Below, piece after piece: positions 15,812 to 37,750 of a stretch of DNA of 64,000 nucleotides. Numbering within the stretch: position 1 is the first letter of the stretch; the number at the start of each line of letters is the position of its first letter. Both the position numbers and the translations under genes were made by a program. The DNA comes from Cellulosimicrobium arenosum (GTDB lineage Bacteria > Actinomycetota > Actinomycetes > Actinomycetales > Cellulomonadaceae). Below the pieces are notes generated by a model. It was not told the DNA's origin. It ran no database searches and saw only the letters and a program-made list of their open reading frames with translations. Location: contig NZ_JACYHB010000007.1 of NCBI RefSeq assembly GCF_014837295.1, positions 124,001 through 188,000 of the forward strand, in the 5' to 3' direction.

Positions 15812-18800
15812 ATGCAACGTCTCATCACCCCCCTGCCCCGCAGCGGGCCCTGGCGCGGGTCGCGGCCCGCGACCGCCGGGCTGCTCGCCTTCACGGTCGG
15901 CGTCGCGGGCGCGCTCGCGGTGGGCGTGCCCACGTCCGCGGTCGCCGCCGAGCCCGACGTGCCTGACGGCGCATGGACCGACCCGTTCGACGGGGTCGGG
16001 CTCGGCCCCGACTGGACCGTGGTCAACCCGGCACCCGAGGCGCTCTCCGTGGCCGACGGCTCGCTCACCCTGACGTCCCAGACCGGCGACACGTACCAGG
16101 ACACCAACACCGCGAAGAACATCGTGATGCTGGACGTCCCCGACGGGGACTTCACGCTCGTCACCCACGTCGACGCCCCCGTCTCGAAGACCTTCCAGGG
16201 CGCCGGCCTCATCGCGTGGCAGGACATCGACAACTACGTGCGCTCGGGCCTGACCTTCGTCGGGGACCTCGCGCCGTCCGGTCGAGCCATCGAGAACGAC
16301 ATCGAGTCCGACGGGTCGTTCAGCGCCTACTCCTTCGCCGACCGCCCGGGCTCGGCCGCCGAGACGCTGCGCATGCAGCGCACGGGTGACGTCGTGGTCA
16401 CGTCCTACTGGGACGACGACGCCTGGACCGAGGCCGGTACCGTCACGGTCGACTTCCCGATCACGCAGGTCGGCGTGTACGCCCTGGCCGCACAGGACGG
16501 CACGACCCACACGGCCGCGTTCGACTACGTCGCGCTCGATGCCGCCGAGGGTGCGGACCAGGTGCCCGACGGGACCTTCACGGTGACCGGCCCCGGCACC
16601 TCCCGGTACCTGGTCGCCACCGAGGACGGTCTCGCCCTCGACGACGAGCGTCCGTCGAGCACCGTCGCGCTCACCGCGACCGAGGTCGAGGACCCCGCGG
16701 AGGGCACGCGCCCGGTCACGCTCGGGACCGACGGCGGGCCCGTCGTCGTGCAGGACGATCGGCTCGCGCTGGGCGAGCCCGGCGCGCCGGGCGAGGAGAT
16801 GCGGATCACCGACGCCGGCGGCGGGAAGGTCTGGCTGCGCAGCGCGGCCGATCCAGGGCTGTACGTCGGCGTGCGCGCCGACGACGGCGCGCTCGTCCTC
16901 GGGCCGCGCGACTCCGCGACGGCGCTGACGGTCACGGCGACCTCGAGCGCCGACCACGAGATCACGGTCGACCTCGCTGGCGAGCGCACCGAGATGAGCG
17001 ACGAGCTCTACGGTATCTTCTACGAGGACATCAACTACGCCGCGGACGGTGGGCTGTACGCCGAGCTCGTGCGCAACCGGTCGTTCGAGTTCGACAACCA
17101 GGACAACGGGTCGTTCAACGGCCTCACGGCGTGGAGCGCCGCGAACCGGGGCGGCGCGACCGCGACGACCCAGGTCGTGAACGACGCCGGCCGCCTCAAC
17201 GCGACCAACCGCAACTACCTGAACCTGACCACCACGGGCGCAGGTGCGGGTGTGCGCAACGCCGGGTACAACACGGGCCAGTTCGTCGAGGAGGGCGAGT
17301 CGTACGACTTCTCGGTGTGGGCGCGCTCCGCGACGGCGCAGACGCTGACCGTCCGCGTCGAGGACGCGGCAGGCACGACGGCGTACGCGACCGGTGAGGT
17401 CGCCGTCGACGGGTCCGACGCATGGAAGAAGTACGAGGTCACCCTCGACGCGACCGGGACCACCACCGCGGGGCGGCTCGCCGTGCTCGCTGGTGCGGCC
17501 GGCACCGTGAACCTCGACATGGTCTCGCTGTTCCCCCAGGACACCTGGGAGGGCGCGGTCAACGGCAAGAGCCCGCTGCGCAAGGACCTGGCCGAGAAGA
17601 TCGAGGCGCTGAACCCGAAGTTCCTGCGCTTCCCGGGTGGCTGCGTGACGAACGTCGGCACGTTCGACTCCTACGAGGAGTCGGGCTACACCGACCGGCA
17701 GCGCACGTACCAGTGGAAGGAGACCATCGGGCCGGTCGAGGAGCGTGCGACCAACTGGAACTTCTGGGGCTACAACCAGTCGTACGGCATCGGCTACCTC
17801 GAGTACTTCGAGTTCGCCGAGGACATGGGCGCGACCGCGCTGCCCGTCGTGTCCGTCGGGGCCAACGGGTGCGGCAGCACCATCCCCGAGATGACGGACC
17901 CCGTGCAGATCCAGCGCTGGGTCGACGACACGGTCGACCTGATCGAGTTCGCCAACGGCGACGTCACGACCGAGTGGGGCGCCGTGCGCGCCGAGCTCGG
18001 TCACCCCGAGCCGTTCGGCATGAAGTACATCGGGCTCGGCAACGAGGAGAACACGCACACGTTCGAGGCCAACTTCCCGCAGTTCCGCGACGCGATCGAG
18101 GCGGCCTACCCGGACATCGAGATCATCTCGAACTCCGGCCCGGACGACACGGGCGCGCGCTTCGACGAGCTCTGGGAGTTCAACCGCGAGCAGGGCGTCG
18201 ACATGGTCGACGAGCACTACTACAACGACCCGTCGTGGTTCCTCGAGAACGACGAGCGCTACGACTCCTACGACCGCGAGGGACCGCACGTGTTCCTCGG
18301 GGAGTACGCGTCGCGCGGCAACACGTTCGCCAACGCGCTCGCCGAGGCGTCGTTCATGACGGGCCTCGAGCGCAACTCCGACGTCGTGGAGCTCGCGTCC
18401 TACGCGCCGCTGCTCGCCAACGAGTCGTACGTCCAGTGGTCGCCCGACGCGATCTGGTTCGACAACGACGAGTCGTGGGGCTCGGTGAACTACTACGTGC
18501 AGCAGATGTTCTCGGCCAACGTCGGCGACCAGGTCGTCCCGAGCACGCACACCGGCCCGCCGGCGGAGGGTGCCACGGTGGACGGCGGGGTCTTCCTGTC
18601 GACGTGGAGCACCGCCGCGCAGTACGACAACGTGCGCGTGACGGACAACGCGAGCGGCGACGTGCTCTTCGAGGACGACTTCGAGGACGGCGCGGACCAG
18701 TGGCAGCCGCAGTCCGGCACGTGGGCCGCGCAGGACGGCGCGTACGTGCAGTCCGCGACGGACGTCACCGACGCGCGCTCGATCATCGAGGGTGCGTACG

Positions 18801-19702
18801 CGAAGGACTGGTCGAGCTACACGCTCGAGCTGGACGCCCGCAAGACGTCCGGGTCCGAGGGCTTCCTCGTCGGCTTCGCCGCCGGCGCCGCGAACGACTA
18901 CTACTGGTGGAACCTCGGCGGGTGGAACAACACGCGCCAGGCCCTCCAGCGGGCTGACGGGGGCAGCGCGAACGAGGTGACGGCGGTCGAGAACAGCAGC
19001 ATCGAGTCCGGCCAGCCGTACCATGTGAAGGTCGTGGTGGAGGGTTCGACCATCGAGCTCTACCTCGACGGGGAGCTGCAGATGTCGTACGCGCAGCCGG
19101 CCAAGAAGTCTCTCTACCAGGTCGTCACGCGTGACGACGACACGGGCGACGTGGTCGTCAAGGTCGTCAACCCGACCGCGACCGCGGCGCGCACGCAGGT
19201 GCACGTCGAGGGCGCCGCGGGCACCATCGACGACACCGCCACCGTCACCGAGATGGTGGGTGCGCCGTCGGACACCAACACCAAGGCCGACCCCGAGCGG
19301 GTCGTCCCGGTCGAGCGGACGCTGACCGGCATCGGTGAGGACTTCTCGTACGAGTTCCCCGCGAGCTCGATCACGTTCGTCCGGCTGCACGAGTCGGCGG
19401 CTCCGGGCGCCGACGTGACCCTCGAGGTCACGGCGCAGCCGCGGTGCCTGGCGGGCAAGGCGTACGTCGCGGTCCGCGCGGTGAACGGCGAGGACGTCCC
19501 GGTTGACGTCGAGCTCGCGACGCCGTTCGGAGCGAGGACGTTCGCCGACGTGGCTGCCGGCAAGAACGCGTACCAGTCGTTCGCGGTGCGCGCGACGTCC
19601 GTCCCGGCCGGCTCCGTCACCGTGACGGGCGCGGGCGACCTCGACGGCGAGCACGTCACCACGCCGTACGACGTCGCGTACGACGCGCTCGACTGCGGCT
19701 GA
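15812..19702 (+). CDS. Secreted multidomain alpha-L-arabinofuranosidase, GH51
   Basis: An exported 1296-residue enzyme releasing alpha-L-arabinose from plant polysaccharide. Order: signal peptide (cleavage near AVA-AEP, about 46); a beta-sandwich like that of GH43 C-terminal or DUF1349 domains (about 55-245); an unassigned region (about 253-380); the GH51 barrel starting ELYGIFYEDINYAADGG (about 392-408), with a CBM4-like insert (about 430-567), acid/base Glu in GLGNEEN (about 745) and nucleophile Glu in VFLGEYASRG (about 831); a second concanavalin-type insert (FEDDFEDGADQW, about 953-1096); the GH51 beta-sandwich; and a shared C-terminal module (PRCLAGKAYVAV...DCG). ATG 15812 follows GAGGAGAGG; earlier starts lie in the operator. 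Confidence 0.93.
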   Translation: MQRLITPLPRSGPWRGSRPATAGLLAFTVGVAGALAVGVPTSAVAAEPDVPDGAWTDPFDGVGLGPDWTVVNPAPEALSVADGSLTLTSQTGDTYQDTNTAKNIVMLDVPDGDFTLVTHVDAPVSKTFQGAGLIAWQDIDNYVRSGLTFVGDLAPSGRAIENDIESDGSFSAYSFADRPGSAAETLRMQRTGDVVVTSYWDDDAWTEAGTVTVDFPITQVGVYALAAQDGTTHTAAFDYVALDAAEGADQVPDGTFTVTGPGTSRYLVATEDGLALDDERPSSTVALTATEVEDPAEGTRPVTLGTDGGPVVVQDDRLALGEPGAPGEEMRITDAGGGKVWLRSAADPGLYVGVRADDGALVLGPRDSATALTVTATSSADHEITVDLAGERTEMSDELYGIFYEDINYAADGGLYAELVRNRSFEFDNQDNGSFNGLTAWSAANRGGATATTQVVNDAGRLNATNRNYLNLTTTGAGAGVRNAGYNTGQFVEEGESYDFSVWARSATAQTLTVRVEDAAGTTAYATGEVAVDGSDAWKKYEVTLDATGTTTAGRLAVLAGAAGTVNLDMVSLFPQDTWEGAVNGKSPLRKDLAEKIEALNPKFLRFPGGCVTNVGTFDSYEESGYTDRQRTYQWKETIGPVEERATNWNFWGYNQSYGIGYLEYFEFAEDMGATALPVVSVGANGCGSTIPEMTDPVQIQRWVDDTVDLIEFANGDVTTEWGAVRAELGHPEPFGMKYIGLGNEENTHTFEANFPQFRDAIEAAYPDIEIISNSGPDDTGARFDELWEFNREQGVDMVDEHYYNDPSWFLENDERYDSYDREGPHVFLGEYASRGNTFANALAEASFMTGLERNSDVVELASYAPLLANESYVQWSPDAIWFDNDESWGSVNYYVQQMFSANVGDQVVPSTHTGPPAEGATVDGGVFLSTWSTAAQYDNVRVTDNASGDVLFEDDFEDGADQWQPQSGTWAAQDGAYVQSATDVTDARSIIEGAYAKDWSSYTLELDARKTSGSEGFLVGFAAGAANDYYWWNLGGWNNTRQALQRADGGSANEVTAVENSSIESGQPYHVKVVVEGSTIELYLDGELQMSYAQPAKKSLYQVVTRDDDTGDVVVKVVNPTATAARTQVHVEGAAGTIDDTATVTEMVGAPSDTNTKADPERVVPVERTLTGIGEDFSYEFPASSITFVRLHESAAPGADVTLEVTAQPRCLAGKAYVAVRAVNGEDVPVDVELATPFGARTFADVAAGKNAYQSFAVRATSVPAGSVTVTGAGDLDGEHVTTPYDVAYDALDCG

Positions 19703-19962: not shown

Positions 19963-22900
19963 ATGCACTCCACGTCCGCGGGCGCGACGCGCGCCCACAC
20001 CGGCCGGGCAGCGAGGTTCGCGGCCGTCGCCGCGGCCACCGCCCTGGCCCTGACCACCTGGGCGCCGTCGGCCTTCGCGGCCGACGCGCTCGGCGACCCG
20101 GTGCTCGACCTGTCGTTCGAGCGCGACGTCACCGACGCCGGCCCGCTCGCCCACCCGGTCACCCTGCGCGGGCACGCCGGGTCCGCGCCGACGGGGTACG
20201 AGTACGTCGACGGCGTCACCGCGGGCACCGAGGCGCTCCGCCTGACCGGGAACACCTACCTCGACCTCGGGACCTCGACCGCGCTCCAGCCCGAGGACCT
20301 CACGCTCGCGTTCTGGATGCAGCCGAGCGGCAGGCTCTCCGGCGAGCACCTCGTCACGTGGAACAAGGGGGCCTACAACTCGGACGGCTGGTACGTGTCG
20401 TCGGAGTCCGACACGGTGCCGCTCGCCATCTCGATCGGTCCTGCGTCGGGTCAGCCGTACAAGGTGCGGGTCGCGAGCTCGGACCGCGCGTCGTTCTTCC
20501 CCGCGGACGAGTGGACGCACGTCGTCGTCACCTACGACCACACCACGAAGGACGTCGCGTTCTACCGCAACGGCGAGAAGGTGCCGTCCACGGTGGCCAA
20601 CGCGACCGGCGGCGACGCGACCGGCGTGCTCGGTTCCGATCCGGCACTGCCCAAGACCATCGGCTTCAACGGCCCGCAGTACAACGGCGGCTACCTCCGG
20701 GCGGCGCTCGACGAGTACCGCGTGTACGACGACGTCGCGGGGCTGGCCGACGTCGTCGGGCTCTACGAGGAGTCGGGCCGCGAGATCGACCGCGACGCGG
20801 TCGCCCGGGACGACGCCGACGGCCTGTCCCTGCCCGAGCGTGCGACCGTCGCGCTCGTGCTGCCCACCACCGGGTCGCGCGGCTCGGCGGTCACGTGGCA
20901 GACGTCCGACCCCGACGTGGTCGGCGCCGACGGTACCGTCACCCGCCCCGCCCTCGGTGAGGACGACGCACACGTCACCCTCACCGCCCGCGTCCGCTAC
21001 CTCGACGGTGACCCGGTGACCCGCACCTTCGACGTCCTCGTGCCCGCGCTCGTGGACGAGACCCCGCTCGAGGACACCACGCTGCCCTCGGTGCTCCTCT
21101 CGGACGACTTCCTCACCAACGCCGCGGGCAAGGAGCACGAGTACCTCCTGAGCCTGGACTCCGAGAAGTTCCTCTACGAGTTCTACAAGGTCGGCGGCCT
21201 GACGCCGACGACCGCGACGGGCTACGCCGGCTGGGAGCGCAGCAACGCGGTCAACTTCCGCGGGCACGCGTTCGGGCACTACATGTCGGCGCTCGCGATG
21301 TCGTACTCCTCCACGCCGGACCAGGCGACGAAGGACGCGCACTTCACGGAGATCGAGGAGGCCGTGAGCGGGCTGTCGCGCGTGCAGGACGCGTACGCGA
21401 CGGCCCACCCGGGATCGGCGGGCTACGTGTCCGCGTTCCGCGAGTCGATCCTCGACCAGGTGCAGGGCACCGGGACGTCCGACGAGAACGTCATCGTGCC
21501 CTGGTACAACCTGCACAAGGTGCTCGCAGGCCTGCTCGACGTCGCCGAGTACGTCGACGGGCCGGTCGGTGACGAGGCGCTCGCGGTCGCGACCGACTTC
21601 GGCCTGTACGTGCAGGGGCGCGTCTCGCAGCTGGACGACACGAGCGTCATGCTGCGCACCGAGTACGGCGGCATGAACGAGGCGCTGTACGAGCTGTTCG
21701 ACCTCACGGGCGACGTGCGCATCAAGGAAGCGGCCGAGGCGTTCGACGAGGTGACGTTCTTCCGTCAGCTCGCAGCCGGCCAGGACGTCCTGCCGGGCAA
21801 GCACGCCAACACGCAGATCCCGAAGCTCCTCGGGGCGCTCAAGCGCTACCGCGTCTTCACGCAGAACCCGGAGCACTACGCGCTCCTCACGCAGGCCGAG
21901 AAGGACGAGCTGCCGATGTACCTGGCGGCGGCGGAGAACTTCTTCGACATCGTCGTGGACGACCACACGTACGTGACCGGCGCGAACAGCCAGGCGGAGC
22001 ACTTCCACGAGCCCGGCTCGCTGCACGAGCACGCCGACGAGCAGGGAGCCGCGCGCAACGCCGAGACGGCCGAGACCTGCAACGAGTACAACATGCTCAA
22101 GCTGTCGCGCGAGCTGTTCAAGCTGAGCAAGGACGTGCGGTACGCGGACTACTACGAGAACGCGTTCATCAACACGATCCTCTCCTCGCAGAACCCGGAG
22201 ACGGGCACGACGACCTACTTCAACCCCATGGGCTCGGGCTACCACAAGGTGTTCAACCTGCCGTTCACCGAGTTCTGGTGCTGCACCGGGACGGGCATGG
22301 AGAACTTCTCCAAGCTGGGCGACTCGATCTACTACACGGGTCAGGGATCGGTGTGGGTCAACATGTTCTTCTCCTCGACGTTCGAGCACGCGGAGCAGAA
22401 CCTGCGCGTCGAGCAGGAGGCGAACCTGCCGAACGACGACACCGTGACGTTCCACGTCGCGGCGCTCGACGGCGGCGCGGTCGCGCAGGACGCGACGCTG
22501 CGCCTGCGCGTGCCGTCGTGGGCCGCGGGCGACGTGTCGCTCGAGGTGAACGGGACCGCGGTCGAGCCCGCGGTGTCGCGCGGGTACGTCGTGGTGCCGG
22601 TCGCCGCGGGCGACGAGATCCGGTACACGATGCCGATGGCGGTGTCCGTCGTCGACACCCCGGACAACCCGTACTTCGTCGCGTTCCGCTACGGCCCGGT
22701 CGTGCTGTCGGCCGACCTGGGCGAGATCCCGGAGCCGGCGTCGCAGGGCACCGGCATCCTCGTGCGGTCCTCGACGCGCGACGAGGACGCGCAGACCACC
22801 ATCACCGCGGCGAACATGGGCGCGGACGAGTGGAAGGAACGCATCACCGAGAACCTCGTGCGCGTCGAGGACGATGCCGACGGGCGCGTGCAGCTCCGGC

Positions 22901-24159
22901 TCCGCAACACCGCGGACGGCGCGGGCCTGGTCTTCACGCCCCACCACACCAACTGGGACGTCACCTACGGCCTGTACCTGAACCTCGACGAGCCGGACTC
23001 CGCTGCGTCGCAGGAGCGGATCCTGCGGTCGAAGCAGGAGCTGCGCGACGCCGACCGCACGGTCGACGAGCTCACCAGCTTCGACAACAACAACTTCGAG
23101 AACGCGAAGAACCTCAAGCAGAACGGGTCCTCGGTCGGCGCGTTCAACGGCCGTCAGTTCCGGCACGCGAACGGCACCGGGTGGTTCAGCTACGACCTCA
23201 TGGTCGACCCGTCGTCCGAGACGAACCACCTCGGTGTGACGCTCTACACCGGTGACGCGGGTCGCACGTTCGACGTGTACGTGAACGACGAGAGGCTCAA
23301 GACCGTCACGACCCTCGCCGACGCCCCGAGCAAGGACGAGGACGGCTTCTACGTCGACTCCACCGAGCTCCCCGCGAAGTACCTGGAGGTCGGGGACGAC
23401 ACGCGCTGGAAGGTCGACAGCGCGGGGGAGTACGTGCTGGACGACGACGGCGAGCGGATCCCTGTCGTGACGGTGCGGTTCCAGGCCACGGGCGGCTGGG
23501 CGGGCGGCGTCTTCGGGCTGCGCCTCGACCGCGCGGCGTCGTACGACGCGACGCCCGGGCTGTCCGCGCTGGCGTTCGACACCGGGACGCTCACCCCCGC
23601 GTTCGACCCTGCGACGACGGACTACACCCTCACCGTGCCCGAGGGCACGACGAGCGTCGTCCTCGACGCCGACCCGCACGTCCCGAGCGGGCTCGTCCGC
23701 GTCGACGGGGTGCTGATCGACGACACCCAGGGCCGCGTCGTCGGGCTGCCGGAGGACGGGACCGCCCGCACGGTCGAGGTGGTCGGCGTCGCGCAGGACC
23801 ACGAGACCGCGACGACGTACACGGTCGAGATCGTGCCGGGCGAGGTCGTGCCGGAACCGGAGGTCGTGCTGGACGTCGAGGTCTCGCCGCGCTGCATGGC
23901 GGGCAAGGCCTACGTGGCGGTCCGTGCGACGAACGCGGTCGACGTCCCCGCGGACGTGACCGTCACGACGCCGTACGGGTCGAGGTCGTTCACCGACGTC
24001 GCACCCGGCAAGGCGGCGTACCAGTCGTTCGCGGTGCGCGCGTCGACGCTCGCCGCCGGCGAGGTCACGGTGACGGGCGCCGCCGTGCTCGACGGCACGG
24101 ACGGGCCGGCTGAGGTCACGACGTCGTACGACGTCGCGTTCGACGCCCGCACCTGCTGA
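19963..24159 (+). CDS. Secreted beta-L-arabinofuranosidase, GH146/GH127-like (DUF1680)
   Basis: A 1398-residue exported enzyme. Order: signal peptide (cleavage near AFA-AD, about 40); LamG-type concanavalin domain (about 45-265); atrophied bacterial Ig domain (about 270-355); the DUF1680 alpha/alpha-barrel (about 377-960); a DUF6805-like domain (about 1030-1190); a cadherin-like beta-sandwich (about 1200-1293); the shared C-terminal module. The zinc and nucleophile cysteines of this clan are present: ETCNEYNMLKL (about 703) and WCCTGTGMEN (about 772). The WCCxGTGMEN form is typical of GH146 rather than GH127 (CCPPN), so I favour beta-Araf removal from pectic arabinan. GAGGAG favours ATG 19963 over 19960. 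Confidence 0.9.
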   Translation: MHSTSAGATRAHTGRAARFAAVAAATALALTTWAPSAFAADALGDPVLDLSFERDVTDAGPLAHPVTLRGHAGSAPTGYEYVDGVTAGTEALRLTGNTYLDLGTSTALQPEDLTLAFWMQPSGRLSGEHLVTWNKGAYNSDGWYVSSESDTVPLAISIGPASGQPYKVRVASSDRASFFPADEWTHVVVTYDHTTKDVAFYRNGEKVPSTVANATGGDATGVLGSDPALPKTIGFNGPQYNGGYLRAALDEYRVYDDVAGLADVVGLYEESGREIDRDAVARDDADGLSLPERATVALVLPTTGSRGSAVTWQTSDPDVVGADGTVTRPALGEDDAHVTLTARVRYLDGDPVTRTFDVLVPALVDETPLEDTTLPSVLLSDDFLTNAAGKEHEYLLSLDSEKFLYEFYKVGGLTPTTATGYAGWERSNAVNFRGHAFGHYMSALAMSYSSTPDQATKDAHFTEIEEAVSGLSRVQDAYATAHPGSAGYVSAFRESILDQVQGTGTSDENVIVPWYNLHKVLAGLLDVAEYVDGPVGDEALAVATDFGLYVQGRVSQLDDTSVMLRTEYGGMNEALYELFDLTGDVRIKEAAEAFDEVTFFRQLAAGQDVLPGKHANTQIPKLLGALKRYRVFTQNPEHYALLTQAEKDELPMYLAAAENFFDIVVDDHTYVTGANSQAEHFHEPGSLHEHADEQGAARNAETAETCNEYNMLKLSRELFKLSKDVRYADYYENAFINTILSSQNPETGTTTYFNPMGSGYHKVFNLPFTEFWCCTGTGMENFSKLGDSIYYTGQGSVWVNMFFSSTFEHAEQNLRVEQEANLPNDDTVTFHVAALDGGAVAQDATLRLRVPSWAAGDVSLEVNGTAVEPAVSRGYVVVPVAAGDEIRYTMPMAVSVVDTPDNPYFVAFRYGPVVLSADLGEIPEPASQGTGILVRSSTRDEDAQTTITAANMGADEWKERITENLVRVEDDADGRVQLRLRNTADGAGLVFTPHHTNWDVTYGLYLNLDEPDSAASQERILRSKQELRDADRTVDELTSFDNNNFENAKNLKQNGSSVGAFNGRQFRHANGTGWFSYDLMVDPSSETNHLGVTLYTGDAGRTFDVYVNDERLKTVTTLADAPSKDEDGFYVDSTELPAKYLEVGDDTRWKVDSAGEYVLDDDGERIPVVTVRFQATGGWAGGVFGLRLDRAASYDATPGLSALAFDTGTLTPAFDPATTDYTLTVPEGTTSVVLDADPHVPSGLVRVDGVLIDDTQGRVVGLPEDGTARTVEVVGVAQDHETATTYTVEIVPGEVVPEPEVVLDVEVSPRCMAGKAYVAVRATNAVDVPADVTVTTPYGSRSFTDVAPGKAAYQSFAVRASTLAAGEVTVTGAAVLDGTDGPAEVTTSYDVAFDARTC

Positions 24160-27310: not shown

Positions 27311-29719
27311 ATGGACATGCACCTACGAGGACGACGCCGGTCCCGGCGCGCGTTCGCCGGGACCGCGCTCGCTGCGCTGGTCGCGGCGTCGCTCGCGACG
27401 GCCGTGCCGTCGTACGCCGCAGACGAGGAGCTCGTCGCCAACGGCGGGTTCGAGGACGGCACGACCGGGTGGTTCGTCAACGACGGCAACGCGACCGACG
27501 GGGGAACGCTGACCACGACCGACGACGCGGCGTCCGGCGACGCGGCGGCGCTCGTCACCGGACGCACCACCACGGGCTCGGGCCCCATGCAGGACCTCAG
27601 CGGCACGGTCCAGGCAGGCGAGACGTACGAGCTGACGGCCAGGATCAAGTACGACGCCGCCGACAGCCCGGGCACCAAGCAGTTCTTCGCGACGATGCAC
27701 TACGGCGGGGGGACGTACACCAACCTCGTGAGCGTGACGGCGACGAAGGGGGAGTGGGCGACGTTCGACGGGACGTTCACGATCCCGGCGTCGCAGTCCG
27801 TGTCGACGGCGCGCCTGTTCTTCGAGACGCCGTGGACGAGCGCTCCGTCGGACGACCCGGCGACGCACCTCATGGACTTCGTGCTCGACGACGTGTCTCT
27901 CGTCGGGGCGGCGCCACCGCCGCCCGCGTCGAGGACCATCGAGGTGCTCGGAAAGATCCCTGGCGAGCACAACCCGCTGATCTCGCACAAGTTCGGTGCG
28001 GACGCGTTCGGCTTCGTGGACGACGGCCGCGTCTACCTCTACATGACGAACGACACCCAGGGGTACGCACCGGACCCGGCCACGGGCGTGTCGCCGCAGA
28101 TCAACTACGGCGACATCAACCAGATCACGGTCATCTCGTCCGAGGACCTCGTGAACTGGACCGATCACGGCGAGGTGCCGGTCGCGGGGCCCGACGGAGT
28201 CGCCCCGTTCACCAACAACTCGTGGGCGCCGGGCATGGCGAAGAAGGTCGTCGACGGCGTCGAGAAGTACTTCCTGTACTACGCGAACGGTGGCGGTTCG
28301 AGCAACGTCATCACGGGTGAGTCGCCCGTCGGGCCGTGGACGAGCGAGCGGGACAGCACCCTCATCGACGGGCGGACCCCTGGCGCGGAAGCGGTCGCCT
28401 GGAAGTTCGACCCCGCTCCGCTGGTGACGGACGACGGCGACGCGTACCTCTACTTCGGTGGCGGCCCGGCGGCGACGGACATGCCGGCGGCGGAGCGGTA
28501 CAACAACCCGAAGAACATCCGGGTCATCGAGCTCGGCGACGACATGGTCTCCACCCAGGGCACGGCCGCCGTGGTCGACGCCCCGGTCGCGTTCGAGGCC
28601 GCGCAGGTGTTCGAGCGCGAGGGCACGTACTACCTGTCGTACTCCTCGCACTTCGGCGGCAACGACTTCGGCGGGAACCAGCAGGCACTGCCGGGCTACC
28701 CGGGAGGCGGGCAGATCGGCTACATGATGTCCGACGACCCCATGTCCTTCCCGAAGGAGACCTATGCGGGCGTCCTGTTCCCCAACCAGTCGCAGTTCTT
28801 CGGGTCCGGCACCGGGGGAAACAACCACCAGTCGGTGTTCGAGCTCGACGGGAAGTTCTACTTCACGTACCACGCGCCGACGCTGAACAAGCGCATCAAC
28901 GGCAACAGCACCCAGGGCTACCGCAGCCCCCACATCCAGGAGCTGACCTTCGACGCCGACGGCACGATCGAGCAGGTGGTCGGCGACTACGCCGGTCCGG
29001 ACCAGGTCAAGGACTTCGACCCGTTCGGCGTGATCGAGGCGGAGACGTTCGGCTGGCAGCAGGGCCTGGCCACGGCGAAGGTCGACGGCGGGTCCGCGCA
29101 GTTCGGCGAGGACGCGCCCAACCTGGTGGTCCGGGACGTGGACGACGGCGACTGGTCCGCCTTGTCGTCGGTGGACTTCGCCGACGGCGCGGCGAGCGTG
29201 ACGGCGCGCGTCCGGCCGCTCGTCGAGGACGCGCAGGTCGAGGTCCGTCTCGACGACCGTACCGGTCCCGTGGTCGGGACGATCGCGCTCGACTCGCCGG
29301 TCGGCGAGTGGACGGACGTCACGGCCGAGCTCGACGGCGTCTCCGGGGTGCACGACGTGTACTTCACGTTCGCCGGGCCGGAGGGCGAGGACCTCGTCGA
29401 GGTCGACACGTGGTCGTTCGCGCCCGCGTCGTCGGGCGGGGAGCTCGACGTCCAGGTGACCGTCCAGCCGCGCTGCCTGGCGGGTACGGCGTACGTCGCC
29501 GTGCGGGCGACGAACGGTGAGGGCACGCCCGTGGACATGACCCTGGCGACGCCCTTCGGCGAGAAGTCGGTCGCGGCCGTGGCTCCGGGGAAGAACGCGT
29601 ACCAGTCGTTCTCCTCGCGGGCGACGTCGTCGACCGCGGGCGCCGTGAGCGTCACGGGGACGACCGGCGACACCTCGAGCACGCAGGACGTCGACTTCGA
29701 CGCTCTCGACTGCGGCTGA
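27311..29719 (+). CDS. Secreted GH43 arabinofuranosidase (arabinoxylan arabinofuranohydrolase-like) with CBM4- and CBM6-like domains
   Basis: An exported 802-residue protein. Order: signal peptide (about 1-37, AVPSYA-AD); CBM4/9-like domain (NGGFEDGTTGWFVNDG, about 42-200); GH43 catalytic propeller (about 215-565) resembling Bacillus arabinoxylan arabinofuranohydrolases (EHNPLISHKFGADAFGF, then GRVYLYMTNDTQGY); CBM6-like domain (GVIEAETFGWQQG, about 573-706); the shared C-terminal module with both cysteines. Candidate catalytic residues are Asp in HKFGADAF, Asp in KFDPAPLV and Glu in AFEAAQVFE. ATG 27311 directly follows CGAGGAGGATCC; the longer open frame upstream is non-coding. Exact substrate (arabinan, arabinoxylan) cannot be read from sequence. 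Confidence 0.9.
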   Translation: MDMHLRGRRRSRRAFAGTALAALVAASLATAVPSYAADEELVANGGFEDGTTGWFVNDGNATDGGTLTTTDDAASGDAAALVTGRTTTGSGPMQDLSGTVQAGETYELTARIKYDAADSPGTKQFFATMHYGGGTYTNLVSVTATKGEWATFDGTFTIPASQSVSTARLFFETPWTSAPSDDPATHLMDFVLDDVSLVGAAPPPPASRTIEVLGKIPGEHNPLISHKFGADAFGFVDDGRVYLYMTNDTQGYAPDPATGVSPQINYGDINQITVISSEDLVNWTDHGEVPVAGPDGVAPFTNNSWAPGMAKKVVDGVEKYFLYYANGGGSSNVITGESPVGPWTSERDSTLIDGRTPGAEAVAWKFDPAPLVTDDGDAYLYFGGGPAATDMPAAERYNNPKNIRVIELGDDMVSTQGTAAVVDAPVAFEAAQVFEREGTYYLSYSSHFGGNDFGGNQQALPGYPGGGQIGYMMSDDPMSFPKETYAGVLFPNQSQFFGSGTGGNNHQSVFELDGKFYFTYHAPTLNKRINGNSTQGYRSPHIQELTFDADGTIEQVVGDYAGPDQVKDFDPFGVIEAETFGWQQGLATAKVDGGSAQFGEDAPNLVVRDVDDGDWSALSSVDFADGAASVTARVRPLVEDAQVEVRLDDRTGPVVGTIALDSPVGEWTDVTAELDGVSGVHDVYFTFAGPEGEDLVEVDTWSFAPASSGGELDVQVTVQPRCLAGTAYVAVRATNGEGTPVDMTLATPFGEKSVAAVAPGKNAYQSFSSRATSSTAGAVSVTGTTGDTSSTQDVDFDALDCG

Positions 29720-29978: not shown

Positions 29979-32900
29979 ATGACCTCACGCCACGACTCAC
30001 CACCCATCACCCGGTCCGACACGAGAACAGGACGACGGGCGCTCGCCGGTCTCCTCGGTCTCGCCCTCGTCGCGCCGCTCGCACCCACGGCAGCGGCTGC
30101 TGCGACGCCGGCCGCAGGATCGACGACCACGGCCCTCGCTGCCGCCGCGCCGACGACCGACGGGCTCGAGCTCTGGCTCCCGCTCGACGAGACCGCGGGC
30201 ACGGTCGCACACGACGCGTCGGGCAACGGCCTCGACGGCACGCTGACCGGGACCGGCGGTGGGTGGCGCGAGGGCCAGGGGCTGACGTTCGGCGGCTCGA
30301 ACCACGTCGACCTCCCCGACGACGTGCTCGCCGGCCACGACGCGGTCACCGTCAGCGCCGACGTCTGGGTCGACACCTCCCTGACCGGCAACTACTTCTT
30401 CTACAACCTCGGCAACACCGCCGTCGGCAGCCCGCAGACGGGTGACGGCTACCTGTTCTCGTCGGGCAACGCGAACTACCGCGCGTCGATCTCGGACCTC
30501 GCGTGGGGCCGCGAGCAGAACACGGCGAAGGCGCCCGCGGGCGCGCTCGCGCGGGGCGTCTGGAAGACGATCACCTACACGCTCGGCGAAGGCACCGGCA
30601 CCCTCTACGAGGACGGCGCGCAGGTCGGCCAGAACGCGGCGGTCACGATCACGCCCGGCGACATCGGGGACGGCTCGACCACCGCCAACTACCTCGGGAA
30701 GTCGGCGTACGCCGCGGACAACCTGTTCAGGGGCCGCATGAAGGACTTCCGGCTCTACGACCGCGCGCTCACCGCCGCCGAGGTCGCGGATCTCTCGGCC
30801 GACGCGGCAGCCGACGCCGTCGCCGCCGACGCGGCAGCGCTCGACCTCGGCGACACGACCGCCGTCGTCACGGACCTCGACCTGCCGGCCAAGGGCGTCG
30901 GCGGCTCCGCGGTCACGTGGACCACGTCCGACGACGGCGTCGTCGCCGCCGACGGGACCGTGACCCGCCCCGCGGCGGGGGCGGAGCCGACCACCGCGAC
31001 GCTGACCGCGACCGTGTCCCTGCGGGGCGCGAGCGTGACCCGCACGTTCGACGTGACGGTGCTCCCGGGCGACGGGGACCAGGCCAAGGCCGACGCCGCG
31101 GCCGCGGCGCTCGAGGTCACGAACCTCGACGACGTGCGCGGCAACCTCGACCTGCCCACGGCCGGTCTGCACGGCGCGGACGTGGCCTGGGCCACGTCGT
31201 CGGGCACCATCACGCCGACCGGTGACGTCACCCGCCCCGCGTACGGCGAGGACGCCGACGACGTCATCCTCACCGCGACCGTCACCGTCGGGGACGCGAC
31301 CACCGTGCGCGAGCTGACGGCCCACGTCCCGGCGCTTCCCGAGCAGGAGGACCTCGAGGGCTACCTGTTCTCGTACTTCGTCGGTGAGGGCACCTCGAAC
31401 GGCGAGCAGGTCTACTTCGGGCTCAGCCAGGGCAACGACGCGCTGAACTACCAGAACCTCAACGACAACCAGCCGGTCCTCACGTCCGAGCTGGGGGAGA
31501 AGGGGCTGCGCGACCCGTTCATCATCCGCTCGCCCGAGGGCGACAAGTTCTACCAGATCGCGACCGACCTGCGGATCTACGACGGGAACGGCTGGGACGC
31601 CGCGCAGCGTCAGGGCTCGAGGTCGATCATGGTGTGGGAGTCCACGGACCTCGTGAACTGGACCGACCAGCGGCTCGTCGAGGTCTCCCCGGAGACCGCG
31701 GGGAACACGTGGGCGCCCGAGGCGTACTACGACGAGTCCATCGGCGCCTACGTCGTGTTCTGGGCCTCGAAGCTCTACGCCGAGGACGACCCGGGGCACA
31801 CCGGCGACAGCTACAACCGCATGATGTACGCCACGACGCGTGACTTCGTGAACTTCAGCGAGGCGCAGGTCTGGATCGACCCCGGGTACTCGGTCATCGA
31901 CTCGACCGTCGCGCAGGACGACGACGGCACGTACTACCGGTTCACCAAGGACGAGCGGAACAACTCCTCGTCGACGCCGTGCTCGAAGTTCATCCTCTCC
32001 GAGAAGTCCGCCGAGCTGCGCTCGACCGACTACGACTTCGTCGCCGACTGCATCGGCAAGGCGAACTCGACCGGCCCGGGGATCAACCAGGGCGAGGGCC
32101 CGACGATCTTCCGGTCCAACGAGAAGGACACGTGGTACCTGTTCATCGACGAGTTCGGCGGGCGCGGCTACGTGCCGTTCGAGTCCGACTCGCTCGACGC
32201 GGCCGACTGGACCATGTCCACCGACTACGACATGCCGTCGCGCCCGCGCCACGGCACGGTGCTCCCGGTGACGCAGGCCGAGTACGACCGCCTGCTCTCC
32301 TCGTACCAGCCGGACGCGTTCGTCGAGTCCGTCGACGACGTCGAGGTCACGGTCCGGACCGGCTCCGCGCCGGTGCTCCCGGCGACCGTCTCGGCGCACT
32401 TCGCGGACGGCTCCACCGGACCGGCCGACGTGACGTGGGACGACGTCGACCCGGCGTCGTACGCGCAGCCCGGCGAGATCGTCGTCGAGGGGTCGCTGGC
32501 CCCCGGCACGAGCGTGCGTGCCCGCGCCGTGATCACGGTGACCGACGACGTCGTGCCGGTCGAGGGCGTGAGCGTCACGCCCGCGTCGCTCGAGATCGCG
32601 GTCGGCGGTGCGCGTCAGCTCACCGCGACGGTGACGCCCGCCAACGCGAGCGACCGGACGATCACGTGGTCGTCGGACGACGAGTCGGTCGTCACCGTGT
32701 CGGCGACCGGCCTCGTCAGCGCCGTCGCCGCAGGCCACGCCATGGTCACGGCCACGACCGCGGACGGCGAGCACACCGCGTACGTCGCGGTCGAGGTGAG
32801 CGAGGACCTGCCCGGGCTCGTCGTGCGGTACGCGCTCGACGAGACGAGCGGGACGTCGGCCGCGAACTCCGCGCCCGACAGCACGTTCGGTCCGGCGACC

Positions 32901-34907
32901 CTGACCAACGGGGCCGCGTTCGCCGGCGCCGACGGGGGCGTGACTCTCGACGGGACGGACGACTTCGTCGACCTGCCCGACGACCTGCTCGCCGGGCTCG
33001 AGGACGCGACGGTCTCCCTGGACGTCAGGATCGACCCGAGCCAGGCGACCCCGTACTTCATCTACGGGCTCGGCAACACGAGCGGCACGGCCGGCAACGG
33101 CTACCTGTTCACGACCGGCAACGCGTACCGCACGTCGATCGCGACGGGGAACTGGACCACCGAGCAGACCGTCACCAAGGGCTCGAACCTCGCGCGCGAC
33201 GTCTGGAAGACCCTGACGTGGACGCTCGAGGACACCACGGCCGTGCTGTACGAGGACGGGGTGGAGGTCTCGCGCCAGGAGAACGTCACGACCGACCCGG
33301 GCGACATCGGCGACGGCACGACGCTCGCCAACTACATCGGCCGCTCGGTCTACACGAGCGACAGGTACCTCAAGGGGTCGGTGCGCGACTTCCGGGTCTA
33401 CGACCGGGCGCTCGCGGCCGACGAGGTCTACGGGTTCGGTGCGAACCACACGTCGATCACCGGTGCCGAGCTCGACGAGCTCAAGGTGCCGGCGATCGTG
33501 GACGACGCGAGCTCGACCGTCACCCTCCCGGTGGTGCCGGGCACGGACCTCACGGCCCTCGACCCCGAGCTCACCGTCTCGCCGCTGGCCAGGGTCTCGC
33601 CCGAGAACGGTGCGGTCCAGGACTTCACCGAGCCGGTCGAGTACACGGTCACCGGGCCGGACGGGTCGTCGCGCACATGGACGGTCCAGGCGAAGATCAT
33701 GAACAGCCCGGTCCTGCCGGGTCTGTACGCCGACCCGAACATCGTCCAGTTCGGCGACACGTTCTACATCTACGCGACGACGGACGGTTACGAGGGCTGG
33801 GGCGGCAAGGACTTCTACGTCTGGAAGTCCACCGACCTCGTCGACTGGGAGCGCTCGGACGAGCCGTTCCTCACGCTCGACGGCGAGAACGGGAACGTCC
33901 CGTGGGCCAGCGGCAACGCCTGGGCGCCGACGATCATCGAGCGGGACGGGAAGTACTACTTCTACTTCTCCGGCCACAACCCGACGTACGAGCGCAAGAC
34001 GATCGGCGTCGCGGTGGCCGACAGCCCCGAGGGTCCGTTCACCGCGCAGCCCGAGGCGATGATCACCAACGGCGAGGCCGTCACGTCGGGCCAGGCGATC
34101 GACCCCGCGGCGTTCCAGGACCCCGAGACCGGGAAGTACTACCTGTTCTGGGGCAACGGCTCGCCGCTGTACGCGGAGCTGTCCGACGACATGCTCTCGG
34201 TGAAGCAGGACACGATCCGCCGGATCAGCGGTCTGAACGACTTCCGCGAGGGGCTGTTCCTCAACTACCGGGACGGGCTGTACCACCTCACGTACTCGAT
34301 CGACGACACCGGGTCGGAGAACTACCGGGTCGGCTACGCGACGTCGACGAGCATCGACGGGCCGTGGACCTACCGCGGCGTCATCCTGTCGAAGGACACG
34401 ACGCAGGGGATCCTCGGGACCGGCCACAGCTCGATCCTCAACGTCGCCGGCACCGACGACTGGTACGTCGCCTACCACCGCTTCGGCATGCCGGGGGGCA
34501 ACGGCAACCACCGCGAGACGACGATCGACCGGCTGACGTTCGGCGAGGACGGCCTCATGCAGACCGTCACGCCGACGCTCGAGAGCGTGGAGCCGGTCGA
34601 CGTCGCCCCGCAGCCCGAGGTGCAGCTCACCGTGGAGGCGACCCCGCGCTGCCTCGCGGGCAAGGTCTACCTCGCGGTCCGCGCGACGAACGCGGGCGAC
34701 GTGCCCGCCGACGTCACGCTGACGACGCCGTTCGGCGAGAAGCGGTTCGCCGACGTCGCCCCCGGGAAGAACGCGTACCAGTCGTTCGCGACCCGCGCGA
34801 CGGACGTCCCGTCGGGCACGGCCACGGTGACGGGCACGGCGACGCTGGACGGCACGCGGACGACGACGCCGTACGACGTCACCTACGCCGCCACCACCTG
34901 CGGCTGA
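29979..34907 (+). CDS. Secreted protein with two GH43 catalytic domains
   Basis: A 1642-residue exported protein. Order: signal peptide (about 1-45); LamG-type domain 1 (about 55-270); two atrophied Ig domains (about 275-455); GH43 domain N (about 460-780; Asp in LRDPFIIRS, Asp in VIDSTVAQD, Glu in QGEGPTIF); two bacterial Ig-like domains (about 785-945, the second BIg_2 type); LamG domain 2 (about 947-1150); a DUF5018-like segment (about 1155-1240); GH43 domain C (about 1244-1540; Asp in GLYADPNI, Asp in DPAAFQD, Glu in FREGLFL); shared C-terminal module. The two catalytic domains are of different GH43 types, so dual specificity on arabinan side chains and backbone is plausible. ATG 29979 follows GACGAGGAG. 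Confidence 0.9.
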   Translation: MTSRHDSPPITRSDTRTGRRALAGLLGLALVAPLAPTAAAAATPAAGSTTTALAAAAPTTDGLELWLPLDETAGTVAHDASGNGLDGTLTGTGGGWREGQGLTFGGSNHVDLPDDVLAGHDAVTVSADVWVDTSLTGNYFFYNLGNTAVGSPQTGDGYLFSSGNANYRASISDLAWGREQNTAKAPAGALARGVWKTITYTLGEGTGTLYEDGAQVGQNAAVTITPGDIGDGSTTANYLGKSAYAADNLFRGRMKDFRLYDRALTAAEVADLSADAAADAVAADAAALDLGDTTAVVTDLDLPAKGVGGSAVTWTTSDDGVVAADGTVTRPAAGAEPTTATLTATVSLRGASVTRTFDVTVLPGDGDQAKADAAAAALEVTNLDDVRGNLDLPTAGLHGADVAWATSSGTITPTGDVTRPAYGEDADDVILTATVTVGDATTVRELTAHVPALPEQEDLEGYLFSYFVGEGTSNGEQVYFGLSQGNDALNYQNLNDNQPVLTSELGEKGLRDPFIIRSPEGDKFYQIATDLRIYDGNGWDAAQRQGSRSIMVWESTDLVNWTDQRLVEVSPETAGNTWAPEAYYDESIGAYVVFWASKLYAEDDPGHTGDSYNRMMYATTRDFVNFSEAQVWIDPGYSVIDSTVAQDDDGTYYRFTKDERNNSSSTPCSKFILSEKSAELRSTDYDFVADCIGKANSTGPGINQGEGPTIFRSNEKDTWYLFIDEFGGRGYVPFESDSLDAADWTMSTDYDMPSRPRHGTVLPVTQAEYDRLLSSYQPDAFVESVDDVEVTVRTGSAPVLPATVSAHFADGSTGPADVTWDDVDPASYAQPGEIVVEGSLAPGTSVRARAVITVTDDVVPVEGVSVTPASLEIAVGGARQLTATVTPANASDRTITWSSDDESVVTVSATGLVSAVAAGHAMVTATTADGEHTAYVAVEVSEDLPGLVVRYALDETSGTSAANSAPDSTFGPATLTNGAAFAGADGGVTLDGTDDFVDLPDDLLAGLEDATVSLDVRIDPSQATPYFIYGLGNTSGTAGNGYLFTTGNAYRTSIATGNWTTEQTVTKGSNLARDVWKTLTWTLEDTTAVLYEDGVEVSRQENVTTDPGDIGDGTTLANYIGRSVYTSDRYLKGSVRDFRVYDRALAADEVYGFGANHTSITGAELDELKVPAIVDDASSTVTLPVVPGTDLTALDPELTVSPLARVSPENGAVQDFTEPVEYTVTGPDGSSRTWTVQAKIMNSPVLPGLYADPNIVQFGDTFYIYATTDGYEGWGGKDFYVWKSTDLVDWERSDEPFLTLDGENGNVPWASGNAWAPTIIERDGKYYFYFSGHNPTYERKTIGVAVADSPEGPFTAQPEAMITNGEAVTSGQAIDPAAFQDPETGKYYLFWGNGSPLYAELSDDMLSVKQDTIRRISGLNDFREGLFLNYRDGLYHLTYSIDDTGSENYRVGYATSTSIDGPWTYRGVILSKDTTQGILGTGHSSILNVAGTDDWYVAYHRFGMPGGNGNHRETTIDRLTFGEDGLMQTVTPTLESVEPVDVAPQPEVQLTVEATPRCLAGKVYLAVRATNAGDVPADVTLTTPFGEKRFADVAPGKNAYQSFATRATDVPSGTATVTGTATLDGTRTTTPYDVTYAATTCG
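33092..33190 (+). repeat. Near-identical DNA shared with the next gene (LamG domain copy)
   Basis: 98 of 99 bases match 35575-35673; the only difference is at 33156/35639. The stretch encodes the core of LamG domain 2 (NGYLFTTGNAYRTSIATGNW). The surrounding LamG regions are similar but clearly diverged, so a local gene conversion or recent exchange is likely. Confidence 0.9.
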
Positions 34908-34933
34908 CCCACCCCGCGAGGTAGAACCACAGG

Positions 34934-35090: not shown

Positions 35091-35143
35091 ACCGCCGGTC
35101 CTACCTCGCGCAACGCACATCCCACTCGACGAGGAGCAGCACC

Positions 35144-37750
35144 ATGACAGAAGAGACGACGCGCCGAGCTGCCCGACGGCGGCGGCGCACCACCGGCATC
35201 GCCGTCGGGCTGGTCGGGGCCCTGGCCGCGACGATGCTGGGTTCGGCGGGGGCGACCGCCGCGCCCGTCGCGAGCGCGGTCGGCGGGGCCGACGACGCGG
35301 GGCTCGTCGCGTGGTACCCGCTCGACGCGGCCAGCACGTCGGGCGGCACGACGGCGAACCTCGCCGCCGGGTCGACGTTCGGTGCGGCGACCGTGAACGG
35401 GGCGCAGGCCACCGCCGACGGGCTCACGCTCGACGGCACCGACGACTACGTCGACCTCCCGGACGACATCCTCGCCGGGCTCACGGACGCGACGGTCAGC
35501 CTCGACGTCCTCGTCGCGACCGACCAGGCCACGCCCTACTTCATCTACGGGCTCGGCAACAGCAGCGGCAGCAACGGCAACGGCTACCTGTTCACGACCG
35601 GCAACGCGTACCGCACGTCGATCGCGACGGGGAACTGGTCCACCGAGCAGACCGTCACCAAGGGCTCGAACCTGACGCGCGGCGTCTGGAAGACCCTGAC
35701 CTACACGCTCTCGGGCACGACCGCGACGCTCTACGAGGACGGCGTCCAGGTCGAGCAGGCCACGAACGTCACGACCGACCCGGGCCAGATCGGGGCCGGG
35801 GCGACCACGGCGAACTACGTCGGCCGGTCGCTGTACTCGGGCGACCGGTACCTCAAGGGCCAGGTGCGCGACTTCCGCCTCTACGACCGCGCGGTCACCG
35901 CGGCCGAGGCGGCCGAGCTCGCGACCGAGACCTCCACCGCAGCGGTCGACGCCGATGCCGCGACGCTCGACCTCGGTGTCACGAGCGCGGTCACGGCGGA
36001 CCTCGTGCTGCCCACGGCCGCCGCGCAGGGCTCGCTCGTCACGTGGTCGTCGTCCGACCCGGCGGTCGTCTCCGCGACCGGCGACGTCACGCGCCCCGCA
36101 GCGGGCGAGGACGACGCGACGGTGACCCTCACCGCGCTCCTCACGCGGGGCGCCGTCGCGCGCACCGTGACGTTCGAGGTCACGGTGCTCGCCGAGCTGG
36201 ACGCGGCCGAGGCCGCGCAGTGGGACGCCGAGCACGTGTCGATCCCGAACCTGGACGACGTGCGCGGCAACATCACGCTCCCGGACGAAGGCGTGAACGG
36301 CTCGTCGCTCACCTGGGTCAGCGGGGACACCGCGACGATCTCGCCCACCGGTGAGGTGACGCGTCCGGCGTCCGGGGAGCAGGCCGTCGTCGTGCAGCTC
36401 ACCGTCACGGCGTCCACGGACGGCGAGACCGCGACGCACGTCTACGAGGCCACGGTCCTGCCGCTGCCGGCCGAGGCGGACTACGAGGGCTACTTCTTCC
36501 CGTACTTCGAGGGGGAGAGCACGCCCGACGGCGAGTCGGTGTACTTCTCCGTGAGCGACGGCAACGACCCGCTCGACTGGATCGAGCTCAACGAGGGCGA
36601 GCCGGTGCTCACCTCCGAGCTGGGCGAGAAGGGCCTGCGCGACCCGTTCATCATCCGCTCGCCCGAGGGCGACCGGTTCTACCTGCTCGCGACCGACCTG
36701 CGGATCTACGGGGGCAACGACTTCGGCAACGCGCAGGAGCGCGGGTCGCTGAACCTCATGATCTGGGAGTCCACGGACCTCGTGCACTGGTCCGACCAAC
36801 GGGCCGTGAAGGTCTCGAGCGACTACGCGGGCAACACGTGGGCGCCCGAGGCGTTCTACGACGCGCAGCGTGGCGAGTACATCGTCTACTGGGCCTCGGC
36901 GCTCTACCCGACGACCGAGACGGACGGCCGGCGGATCTCGACCAGCTACCAGCGCATGATGTACGCCACGACGCGCGACTTCGTGACGTTCACCGAGCCG
37001 CAGGTGTGGATCGACGAGAAGCGCGGCAACGGGCTCGGGATGATCGACTCGTCGATCGTCGAGGAGGACGGGACGTACTACCGGTTCACCAAGGACGAGG
37101 CGTACATGATCCCGCGCCTGGAGAGGTCGACGGACCTGCGCTCGACCGACTGGGAGCTCGTCGCGGAGAAGATCGGGCTCGGCCAGCCGAACCCGTGGGG
37201 CGGGACGTTCACGAACGGTGAGGGCCCGACGGCGTTCCGGTCCAACACCGAGGAGAAGTGGTACCTCTTCATGGACCAGCCCAGCTACCACGGCGGCCAG
37301 GGCTACATGGCGTTCGAGTCCACGGACCTCGACTCCGGGGACTGGACCTCGGTCGACGCGCACCTGCCCACGAGCCCGCGGCACGGGACGGTCCTGCCGA
37401 TCACCGCTGCGGAGCAGGCTGCGGTCCTCGCGGCGTACGGGGACGAGCCGCCGGCACCAGAGCTCGCGCTCGACGTGCAGGTCGTGCCGCGCTGCCTGGC
37501 GGGCAAGGCGTACGTCGCGGTCCGCGCGACGAACGCCGACGAGGTCCCGGTCGACATCGCGCTGAGCACCCCGTACGGCGCGAAGTCGTTCGCGGACGTG
37601 GCCCCGGGCAAGAACGCGTACCAGTCGTTCGCGGTGCGGGCCCCGTCGGCGGCGGCGGCCGGCGTGACCGTCACGGCGACGGGCGTCGTCGAGGGCGAGA
37701 CCGTCACCTCGACCGAGGCGCTGGACTTCGGGGCGGTCGACTGCGCCTGA
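35144..37750 (+). CDS. Secreted GH43 glycosidase with LamG and Ig-like domains
   Basis: An exported 868-residue protein: Arg-rich n-region and signal peptide (about 1-45), LamG-type domain (about 50-255), two atrophied bacterial Ig domains (about 260-440), GH43 catalytic domain (about 445-765), and the shared C-terminal module with both cysteines. Catalytic candidates are Asp in LRDPFIIRS, Asp in MIDSSIVEE and Glu in GEGPTAFRS. It is a paralogue of the N-terminal half of the preceding protein (same domain order and motifs), which points to gene duplication followed by fusion or loss of the second catalytic half. ATG 35144 follows GACGAGGAGC; the longer upstream frame runs through the suspect poly-C tract. 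Confidence 0.9.
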   Translation: MTEETTRRAARRRRRTTGIAVGLVGALAATMLGSAGATAAPVASAVGGADDAGLVAWYPLDAASTSGGTTANLAAGSTFGAATVNGAQATADGLTLDGTDDYVDLPDDILAGLTDATVSLDVLVATDQATPYFIYGLGNSSGSNGNGYLFTTGNAYRTSIATGNWSTEQTVTKGSNLTRGVWKTLTYTLSGTTATLYEDGVQVEQATNVTTDPGQIGAGATTANYVGRSLYSGDRYLKGQVRDFRLYDRAVTAAEAAELATETSTAAVDADAATLDLGVTSAVTADLVLPTAAAQGSLVTWSSSDPAVVSATGDVTRPAAGEDDATVTLTALLTRGAVARTVTFEVTVLAELDAAEAAQWDAEHVSIPNLDDVRGNITLPDEGVNGSSLTWVSGDTATISPTGEVTRPASGEQAVVVQLTVTASTDGETATHVYEATVLPLPAEADYEGYFFPYFEGESTPDGESVYFSVSDGNDPLDWIELNEGEPVLTSELGEKGLRDPFIIRSPEGDRFYLLATDLRIYGGNDFGNAQERGSLNLMIWESTDLVHWSDQRAVKVSSDYAGNTWAPEAFYDAQRGEYIVYWASALYPTTETDGRRISTSYQRMMYATTRDFVTFTEPQVWIDEKRGNGLGMIDSSIVEEDGTYYRFTKDEAYMIPRLERSTDLRSTDWELVAEKIGLGQPNPWGGTFTNGEGPTAFRSNTEEKWYLFMDQPSYHGGQGYMAFESTDLDSGDWTSVDAHLPTSPRHGTVLPITAAEQAAVLAAYGDEPPAPELALDVQVVPRCLAGKAYVAVRATNADEVPVDIALSTPYGAKSFADVAPGKNAYQSFAVRAPSAAAAGVTVTATGVVEGETVTSTEALDFGAVDCA
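35575..35673 (+). repeat. Near-identical DNA shared with the preceding gene (LamG domain copy)
   Basis: Partner of 33092-33190; 98 of 99 bases identical, including a 64-base uninterrupted run. Confidence 0.9.

Follow-up and report, generated by a model that had tools for sequence, protein, structure and literature searches.

A C-terminal module of about 95 residues ends six consecutive exported enzymes in a 64,000-nucleotide stretch of the Cellulosimicrobium arenosum genome (the window), is a real protein family that has expanded greatly in one genus, and, judged from sequence, probably functions as a docking or retention tag rather than as a substrate-specific carbohydrate-binding module (CBM). 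A sequence-only reading of the window had offered carbohydrate binding, surface retention or docking as possible roles; a tag that retains the enzymes or holds the set together is favoured by the presence of carriers that do not act on carbohydrates, the single terminal copy and a shared residue set, and a CBM is disfavoured.

The six genes occupy positions 15812-37750 on the forward (+) strand of the window. Carrier 1 (15812..19702, with the start at 15812 picked by a signal-peptide heuristic) is a GH51-type alpha-L-arabinofuranosidase, called GH51-like from the Pfam matches ASD1_dom and Alpha-L-AF_C, and is composed of a signal peptide, a DUF1349/GH43_C2-like domain, CBM_4_9, the ASD1 domain and module 1 (19403..19699). 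Carrier 2 (19963..24159) is a beta-L-arabinofuranosidase-type enzyme of the GH127 family (PF07944) with LamG, aBig_2 and cadherin-like domains and module 2 at 23851..24156. Carrier 3 (24261..27155) combines GH43, CBM_4_9 and GH43_C2 with module 3 (26868..27152), and carrier 4 (27311..29719) combines CBM_4_9, GH43 and CBM_6 with module 4 (29432..29716). Carrier 5 (29979..34907) is a double GH43 enzyme with LamG, aBig_2, Big_2 and Big_4 domains and module 5 at 34608..34904, and carrier 6 (35144..37750) is a divergent GH43 enzyme with LamG and aBig_2 domains and module 6 (37451..37747), the reference for all residue numbers given here. The unrelated catalytic folds described for the set are thus recovered by Pfam as one GH51-like, one GH127-family, three single GH43 and one double GH43 protein; the single and double GH43 calls stand with the exception of the sixth protein, whose weak match falls just under the Pfam cut-off (32.0 versus 32.2 bits). 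A sugar-type periplasmic binding protein domain (10402..11751) and an open reading frame with a BPD_transp_2 ABC permease domain (13384..15600), both assigned by Pfam, lie upstream on the same strand and suggest an arabinan/arabinose locus.

Alignment of the six modules, with 24 invariant columns and copies 49-66% identical to module 1, confirms that the same module ends all six enzymes. The motifs quoted for it are not common to all six, as the third protein instead has VRAMAGRDYVTVRVTN and ends in ...AERD without either cysteine, nor is the ...CG ending, since the second protein ends in ...TC and the sixth in ...DCA. The view that the module could not be placed in a named family holds up: the six window modules match no Pfam or NCBIfam model above cut-off and have no significant relative among PDB sequences, where the best match is a designed Ig with a non-significant E of 0.028. 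This Pfam search, a check that the sequence-only reading had proposed, matched no described CBM or anchoring family above cut-off. Two modules gave nothing above cut-off in PADLOC, and module 6 matched no phage record. Among the titles and abstract openings listed from the open-licence literature none describes the module, and peptide words taken from it had no match in these papers, from which it does not follow that the module is unpublished.

The six enzymes are real but understate the scope of the module, which is genus-wide with about ten times more copies. A tblastn search of the C. arenosum genome (3,951,297 bases in 33 contigs) with one copy identified 63 module places (E <= 0.001), six of them within the window, the best paralogue having an E of 1.5e-35 and weaker ones ranking down to 1.3e-9. 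A profile built from 62 copies, omitting a divergent copy on an asparaginase-like protein (C23:342029), found 64 places in the same genome and 26-64 matches per genome in all 17 Cellulosimicrobium genomes. Across the family at least 89 of 221 genomes, the own genus included, have one or more matches, and in a sample of the phylum at least 8 of 396 genomes do, including the C. arenosum genome itself and two marginal cases (E 6e-4 and 8e-4); per-genome module counts were taken among at most 23 candidates listed for the family and at most 12 for the phylum sample. Among the 73 loci kept, of 465 confirmed, from named genomes, 61 are from Cellulosimicrobium, and named loci elsewhere come from Oerskovia, Micromonospora, Nonomuraea, Plantactinospora and Planotetraspora. 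Five of the best named matches (L036, L047, L075, L076 and L084) are filed as Sphaerisporangium cinnabarinum ATCC 31213 but resemble Cellulosimicrobium copies, possibly reflecting a mislabelled genome.

The large expansion is limited to Cellulosimicrobium and a few other genera of its family, and another family of the same order (f5) has smaller ones, with at least 11, 9 and 3 modules in the genomes G488, G536 and G477. Many of the f5 modules (L213-L217, L218-L222, L223) are clustered in short stretches, and they have other residues at Y57-Q58-S59. A distant copy is present under a family 43 glycosylhydrolase annotation on the Clavibacter phaseoli plasmids NZ_CP040796.1 and NZ_CP040787.1. By sequence, the own-genus modules are part of a broader actinobacterial family whose members mostly occur in low copy number.

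The earlier statement that the module is always the last element extends well past the window. It runs to the stop codon in all 63 own-genome carriers read, is C-terminal in all 73 named-genome loci, and ends no more than four residues before the stop in all 55 modules read from nine further genomes. Two genomes that also contribute to this set of 55, G166 and G177, have C-terminal modules in 30 of 32 carriers (at most two residues following), the remaining two being followed by 9 and 24 residues. Among 31 low-copy relatives, two modules precede a further domain some 100 residues long and a third is followed by 26 residues; internal modules (2/31) are too rare for a contrast with the own genome. 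All proteins read carry a single module copy. A signal-peptide-like start was detected by a simple heuristic in 60 of the 63 own carriers, one of which also has a lipobox-like motif, and of the three carriers without such a start two are short, at 139 and 167 amino acids, and the third is a frame of 1489 amino acids.

The carriers are diverse in function. Pfam families were assigned to 62 carriers in two lots, of which the commonest 25 of 50 and 25 of 56 families were listed, and those listed include the glycosidase families GH92 (7), GH43 (8), GH76 (2), GH97, GH29 and GH106 and the GH78-type rhamnosidases (2), together with PL8, ThuA (3), GSDH (4), GDSL esterases (2), an M28 peptidase and a 5'-nucleotidase C-domain protein. 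Further families came from scans of individual carriers in the same set: a subtilase, an alpha/beta hydrolase and a purple acid phosphatase. In the stretch C2:135669-138163 the tagged purple acid phosphatase lies within 3 kb of the only match to PF00746 in the genome. The M28 peptidase illustrates that the module is an appended part, as the complete homologous frames read outside Cellulosimicrobium and the genera g15 and g16 end soon after the catalytic part and have no module. A search with this protein matches 116 of 220 family genomes (E <= 0.001), some of them through the module alone. The alignment reaches residue 594 or 595 of 595 in 15 of 17 genus genomes, in all seven g15 genomes and in the one g16 genome, and outside these genera it typically ends near residue 493. 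The five complete frames read from elsewhere (L133, L135, L136, L137 and L139; L138 is cut by a contig end and not counted) all lack a module and end 8-45 residues past the catalytic part.

A carrier set that mixes peptidases, a phosphatase, esterases and glycosidases argues against one external substrate as the ligand, and this bears directly on the unlikely alternative that the module is a new CBM with a broad external ligand, such as a plant or fungal polysaccharide, that concentrates each enzyme on its substrate. Glycosidases are numerous among the carriers, and the two conserved tyrosines and the arginines of the module would suit a glycan-binding face. However, a CBM of this kind would have to be explained on peptidases, a phosphatase and esterases, and on several carriers that already have CBM_6, CBM_35 or CBM_4_9. 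CBMs are also frequently found in tandem or at internal positions, whereas each carrier has a single module, which in the own genome is invariably at the end. The module may still have a carbohydrate as its ligand, in particular a polymer of the cell envelope.

The residue anatomy of the module separates a structural core from a set of residues typical of the expanded subfamily. In 117 modules (62 own and 55 others) both terminal cysteines are present in 110, neither is present in 6 and the first only in 1, so that the first and last cysteine share the same fate in 116 of 117 modules and a disulfide joining the module ends is probable. Both cysteines are lost and NAYQSF is kept in the ThuA-like carrier L033:2098-3588, in the GH43 carrier at 24261-27155 of the window and in L107 from C. 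cellulans MP1. The core columns C15, G18, V24, N28, T40, G43, V50, G53, G70, V74 and C98 are conserved at 61-100% in the 31 relatives and are common to the own copies. A second set, R14, L16, A17, Y21, A23, R25, Y57, Q58, S59 and R63, is found at 89-100% in 62 own copies versus 3-48% in the 31 relatives, a contrast inflated to some degree because the set was picked from the own copies, on which it was then partly tested, and because some relatives are mutual close orthologues. Within this set the own copies and the relatives differ most plainly at Y21 (92 versus 6%), A23 (98 versus 16%), R25 (98%, or 61/62, versus 10%), Y57 (62/62 versus 10%), Q58 (61/62 versus 3%) and R63 (62/62 versus 48%). 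The set falls into two conserved segments, which in module 6 are RCLAGKAYVAVR (residues 14-25, 37490..37525, + strand) and NAYQSFAVR (residues 55-63, 37613..37639, + strand). Y21, A23 and R25 occupy every second position, and Y57, S59 and, two such steps later, R63 follow the same spacing; these residues would share one face if both stretches are strands of what we infer to be a small, beta-rich domain.

The same anatomy weighs on the distinctly unlikely alternative that the module has no partner and serves as a cap for stability or secretion, a domain at the C-terminus that is closed by a disulfide and resists carboxypeptidases or assists export. Such a cap would be consistent with the co-variation of the cysteines (110 both, 6 neither, 1 first only; n=117), the terminal position and the occurrence of the related family as single copies elsewhere. 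A cap would have no need of the near-invariant Y57, Q58 and R25, which are mostly absent from relatives with the same core, and two own-genome copies free of cysteines still retain NAYQSF and the downstream arginine.

Comparison of orthologous carriers in other genera suggests that the residue set can be replaced on the same enzymes. The 14 tagged carriers of one g15 genome and the 18 of one g17 genome were matched to their best own carrier; a requirement of at least 60% identity and at least 600 bits left 11 and 9 pairs, which were compared over the 22 columns with at least 89% conservation in the own copies. In the g15 genome Y57 and position 21 differ in all 11 pairs (position 21 of the own carrier being Y in ten and F in one), followed by A23 in 8, R14 in 7, S59 in 6 and R25 in 5, with no differences at Q58, R63, N28 and G43; YQSF is present in one of the 14 g15 modules, an unpaired one. 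In the g17 genome 7 of the 9 pairs differ at Y57, 6 each at A17 and G18, 4 each at position 21 and S59, and 1 each at A23, R14, R25 and R63. Over the set columns of g17 the paralogues are more similar to each other (0.66) than the orthologues are (0.59), the reverse of the other columns (0.33 and 0.47), and no such reversal occurs in g15 (within-genome 0.44 and orthologue 0.47 in set columns, 0.37 and 0.44 in others). Because the residues are uniform across unrelated enzymes in one genus and different on the same enzymes in another, their replacement in a related genus suggests co-adaptation to one shared partner. Several observations count against a strict form of this reading: Y21 and L16 are each kept in 7% of ThuA orthologues, the M28 enzyme is better conserved than its module (identity 0.74-0.93 versus 0.40-0.81), and g15 lacks the reversal. 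Nor does the set behave uniformly: g15 retains Q58 and R63, and in g17 six of the nine pairs differ at G18, a core residue.

The main alternative to co-adaptation is that short-tract gene conversion or recent copying, rather than a partner, keeps the residue set uniform; short-tract conversion could mimic parallel change, and this reading, although improbable, draws on the fact that all copies are paralogous and have expanded greatly in Cellulosimicrobium and a few related genera. It is opposed by the nearest neighbours of modules in the M28 and ThuA families, which are orthologues in 38 of 38 cases (mostly genus-mates, making this a weak test across genera), and by the columns outside the set and core, where orthologues exceed paralogues in similarity (0.44 versus 0.37 in g15 and 0.47 versus 0.33 in g17). 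Conversion of the whole tail is supported by neither the nearest-neighbour nor the column-similarity test.

For the docking or retention tag, we infer a mechanism in which each carrier would be exported via its own signal peptide and the tag, as a small beta-rich domain with its ends probably pinned by a disulfide, would dock by one exposed face comprising R14, Y21, A23, R25, Y57, Q58, S59 and R63. All carriers would share one putative extracellular partner, which would be a scaffold protein or a polymer of the envelope. Docking would hold about 60 unrelated enzymes together on the cell surface, in a multienzyme particle released from the cell, or in both, the particle possibly being like that of C. 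cellulans F16. A shared-partner tag makes less sense in the single-copy relatives.

No partner or receptor was found for the module, the candidate tested being a surface protein of the genus with a single cohesin and a sortase-type tail. This protein occurs in all 17 genus genomes and in 26 of 220 family genomes, all 26 of which have at least one module, and in six of the nine genus neighbourhoods read the surrounding ~20 kb also contains a tagged gene. It was rejected as hardly credible, since it adjoins a gene for an N-terminal dockerin with an amidase-like domain, its obvious partner, in 14 of 14 neighbourhoods, since no tagged gene is present in nine neighbourhoods from other genera and four lone g4 modules lie outside the cohesin neighbourhood, and since six genomes with at least 12-19 modules (five of g15, and G177) have no PF00963 match. 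In the own genome the cohesin reading frame is at 9628-10584 and the dockerin-amidase frame within 7721-10900 of L165 (C1:335500-355400), both on the minus strand. The two genes form a cassette of same-strand neighbours in all 14 neighbourhoods (g1, g15, g16, g8 and g4); g15 and g8 have them in the opposite order. The tail of the single-cohesin protein is of the sortase type LASTG, or LSATG in g4. The domain joined to the dockerin is presumably amidase-like, a call made from its sequence rather than from Pfam.

The C. cellulans F16 particle, Xyl_I, is a multienzyme assembly to which the tag may be relevant. It is described as 20-65 nm in size and ~17.9 MDa in mass, with 27 identified proteins including glucanases, xylanases, mannanases, peptidases and laccases, and its authors reported no dockerin or cohesin in the F16 genome and called the assembly of the particle unexplained (Dou et al. 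2015, PMC4562250). In the same study, a key subunit has the order ThuA-GSDH-PKD-CBM_6-PKD and is full length in the particle, and ~118 kDa forms lacking ~500 C-terminal residues are described as monomeric (PMC4562250). The own-genome protein L015:2393-7417 has the same ThuA-GSDH-PKD-CBM_6-PKD order, then two ConA-like domains and then the module, and its matches reach residue 1675 of 1675 in 15 of 17 genus genomes, the own genome included. A 118.5 kDa form of this protein would stop near residue 1138, inside the second PKD domain, so that the tag would fall in the lost part; the ~500 residues missing in F16 would also comprise both ConA-like domains, and the particle might instead be a vesicle or an aggregate. 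A similar case may be the Cellulosimicrobium dextranase of 1065 residues, with annotated domains up to 965, which was reportedly isolated in a C-terminally shortened form (PMC9691899). We tentatively consider it possible that some 60 secreted enzymes of many kinds in this aerobic actinobacterium dock via the one module to a scaffold and build a 17.9 MDa 'hemicellulosome' that is independent of cohesin and dockerin and whose interface has diverged between genera. The module offers a clonable candidate for the F16 assembly question and, if it is a docking module, would provide a new tool beyond dockerins for designed enzyme assemblies. The tag could also help explain the C-terminally shortened soluble forms of the two Cellulosimicrobium enzymes (PMC4562250, PMC9691899).

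Among known systems, the module resembles CBMs in being a small domain appended to glycosidases, but it is also attached to enzymes without carbohydrate substrates and has no match above cut-off to the CBM models of curated Pfam and NCBIfam. Like the C-terminal sorting signals, it is a tail shared by dozens of exported proteins in one genome; T9SS CTD, PEP-CTERM, GlyGly-CTERM and LPXTG signals each provide a common tail to dozens of exported proteins per genome. Unlike them, it occurs in a Gram-positive host and its own-genome copies end without a visible sortase motif or hydrophobic helix. NCBIfam includes tail models for T9SS CTD, PEP-CTERM and GlyGly-CTERM, and the six window modules have no match to these above cut-off in a search at E up to 10. 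The single Gram_pos_anchor (PF00746) match of the own genome (C2:138059-138163) is not at a module place, with the qualification that this model misses variants such as LASTG. The dockerin/cohesin system, whose interfaces are species-specific, shares with the module a usually C-terminal position and one copy per enzyme on unrelated secreted catalytic domains; dockerins have calcium-binding repeats, whereas the module has a probable terminal disulfide and the six window modules give no dockerin (PF00404) hit at E up to 10. The own genome contains one dockerin match (C1:344756-344923), not at a module place, and a single cohesin (PF00963) match, with no multi-cohesin scaffold found. In its presumed action the module can be likened to a dockerin or a sorting tail, having been found to be a member of neither. 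Its kinship is instead with the 31 low-copy actinobacterial relatives, the f5 expansions and the Clavibacter phaseoli GH43 protein, which have the same core columns and mostly the same terminal cysteines, but mostly without the Y21/A23/R25 and Y57/Q58/S59 residues that mark the expanded subfamily.
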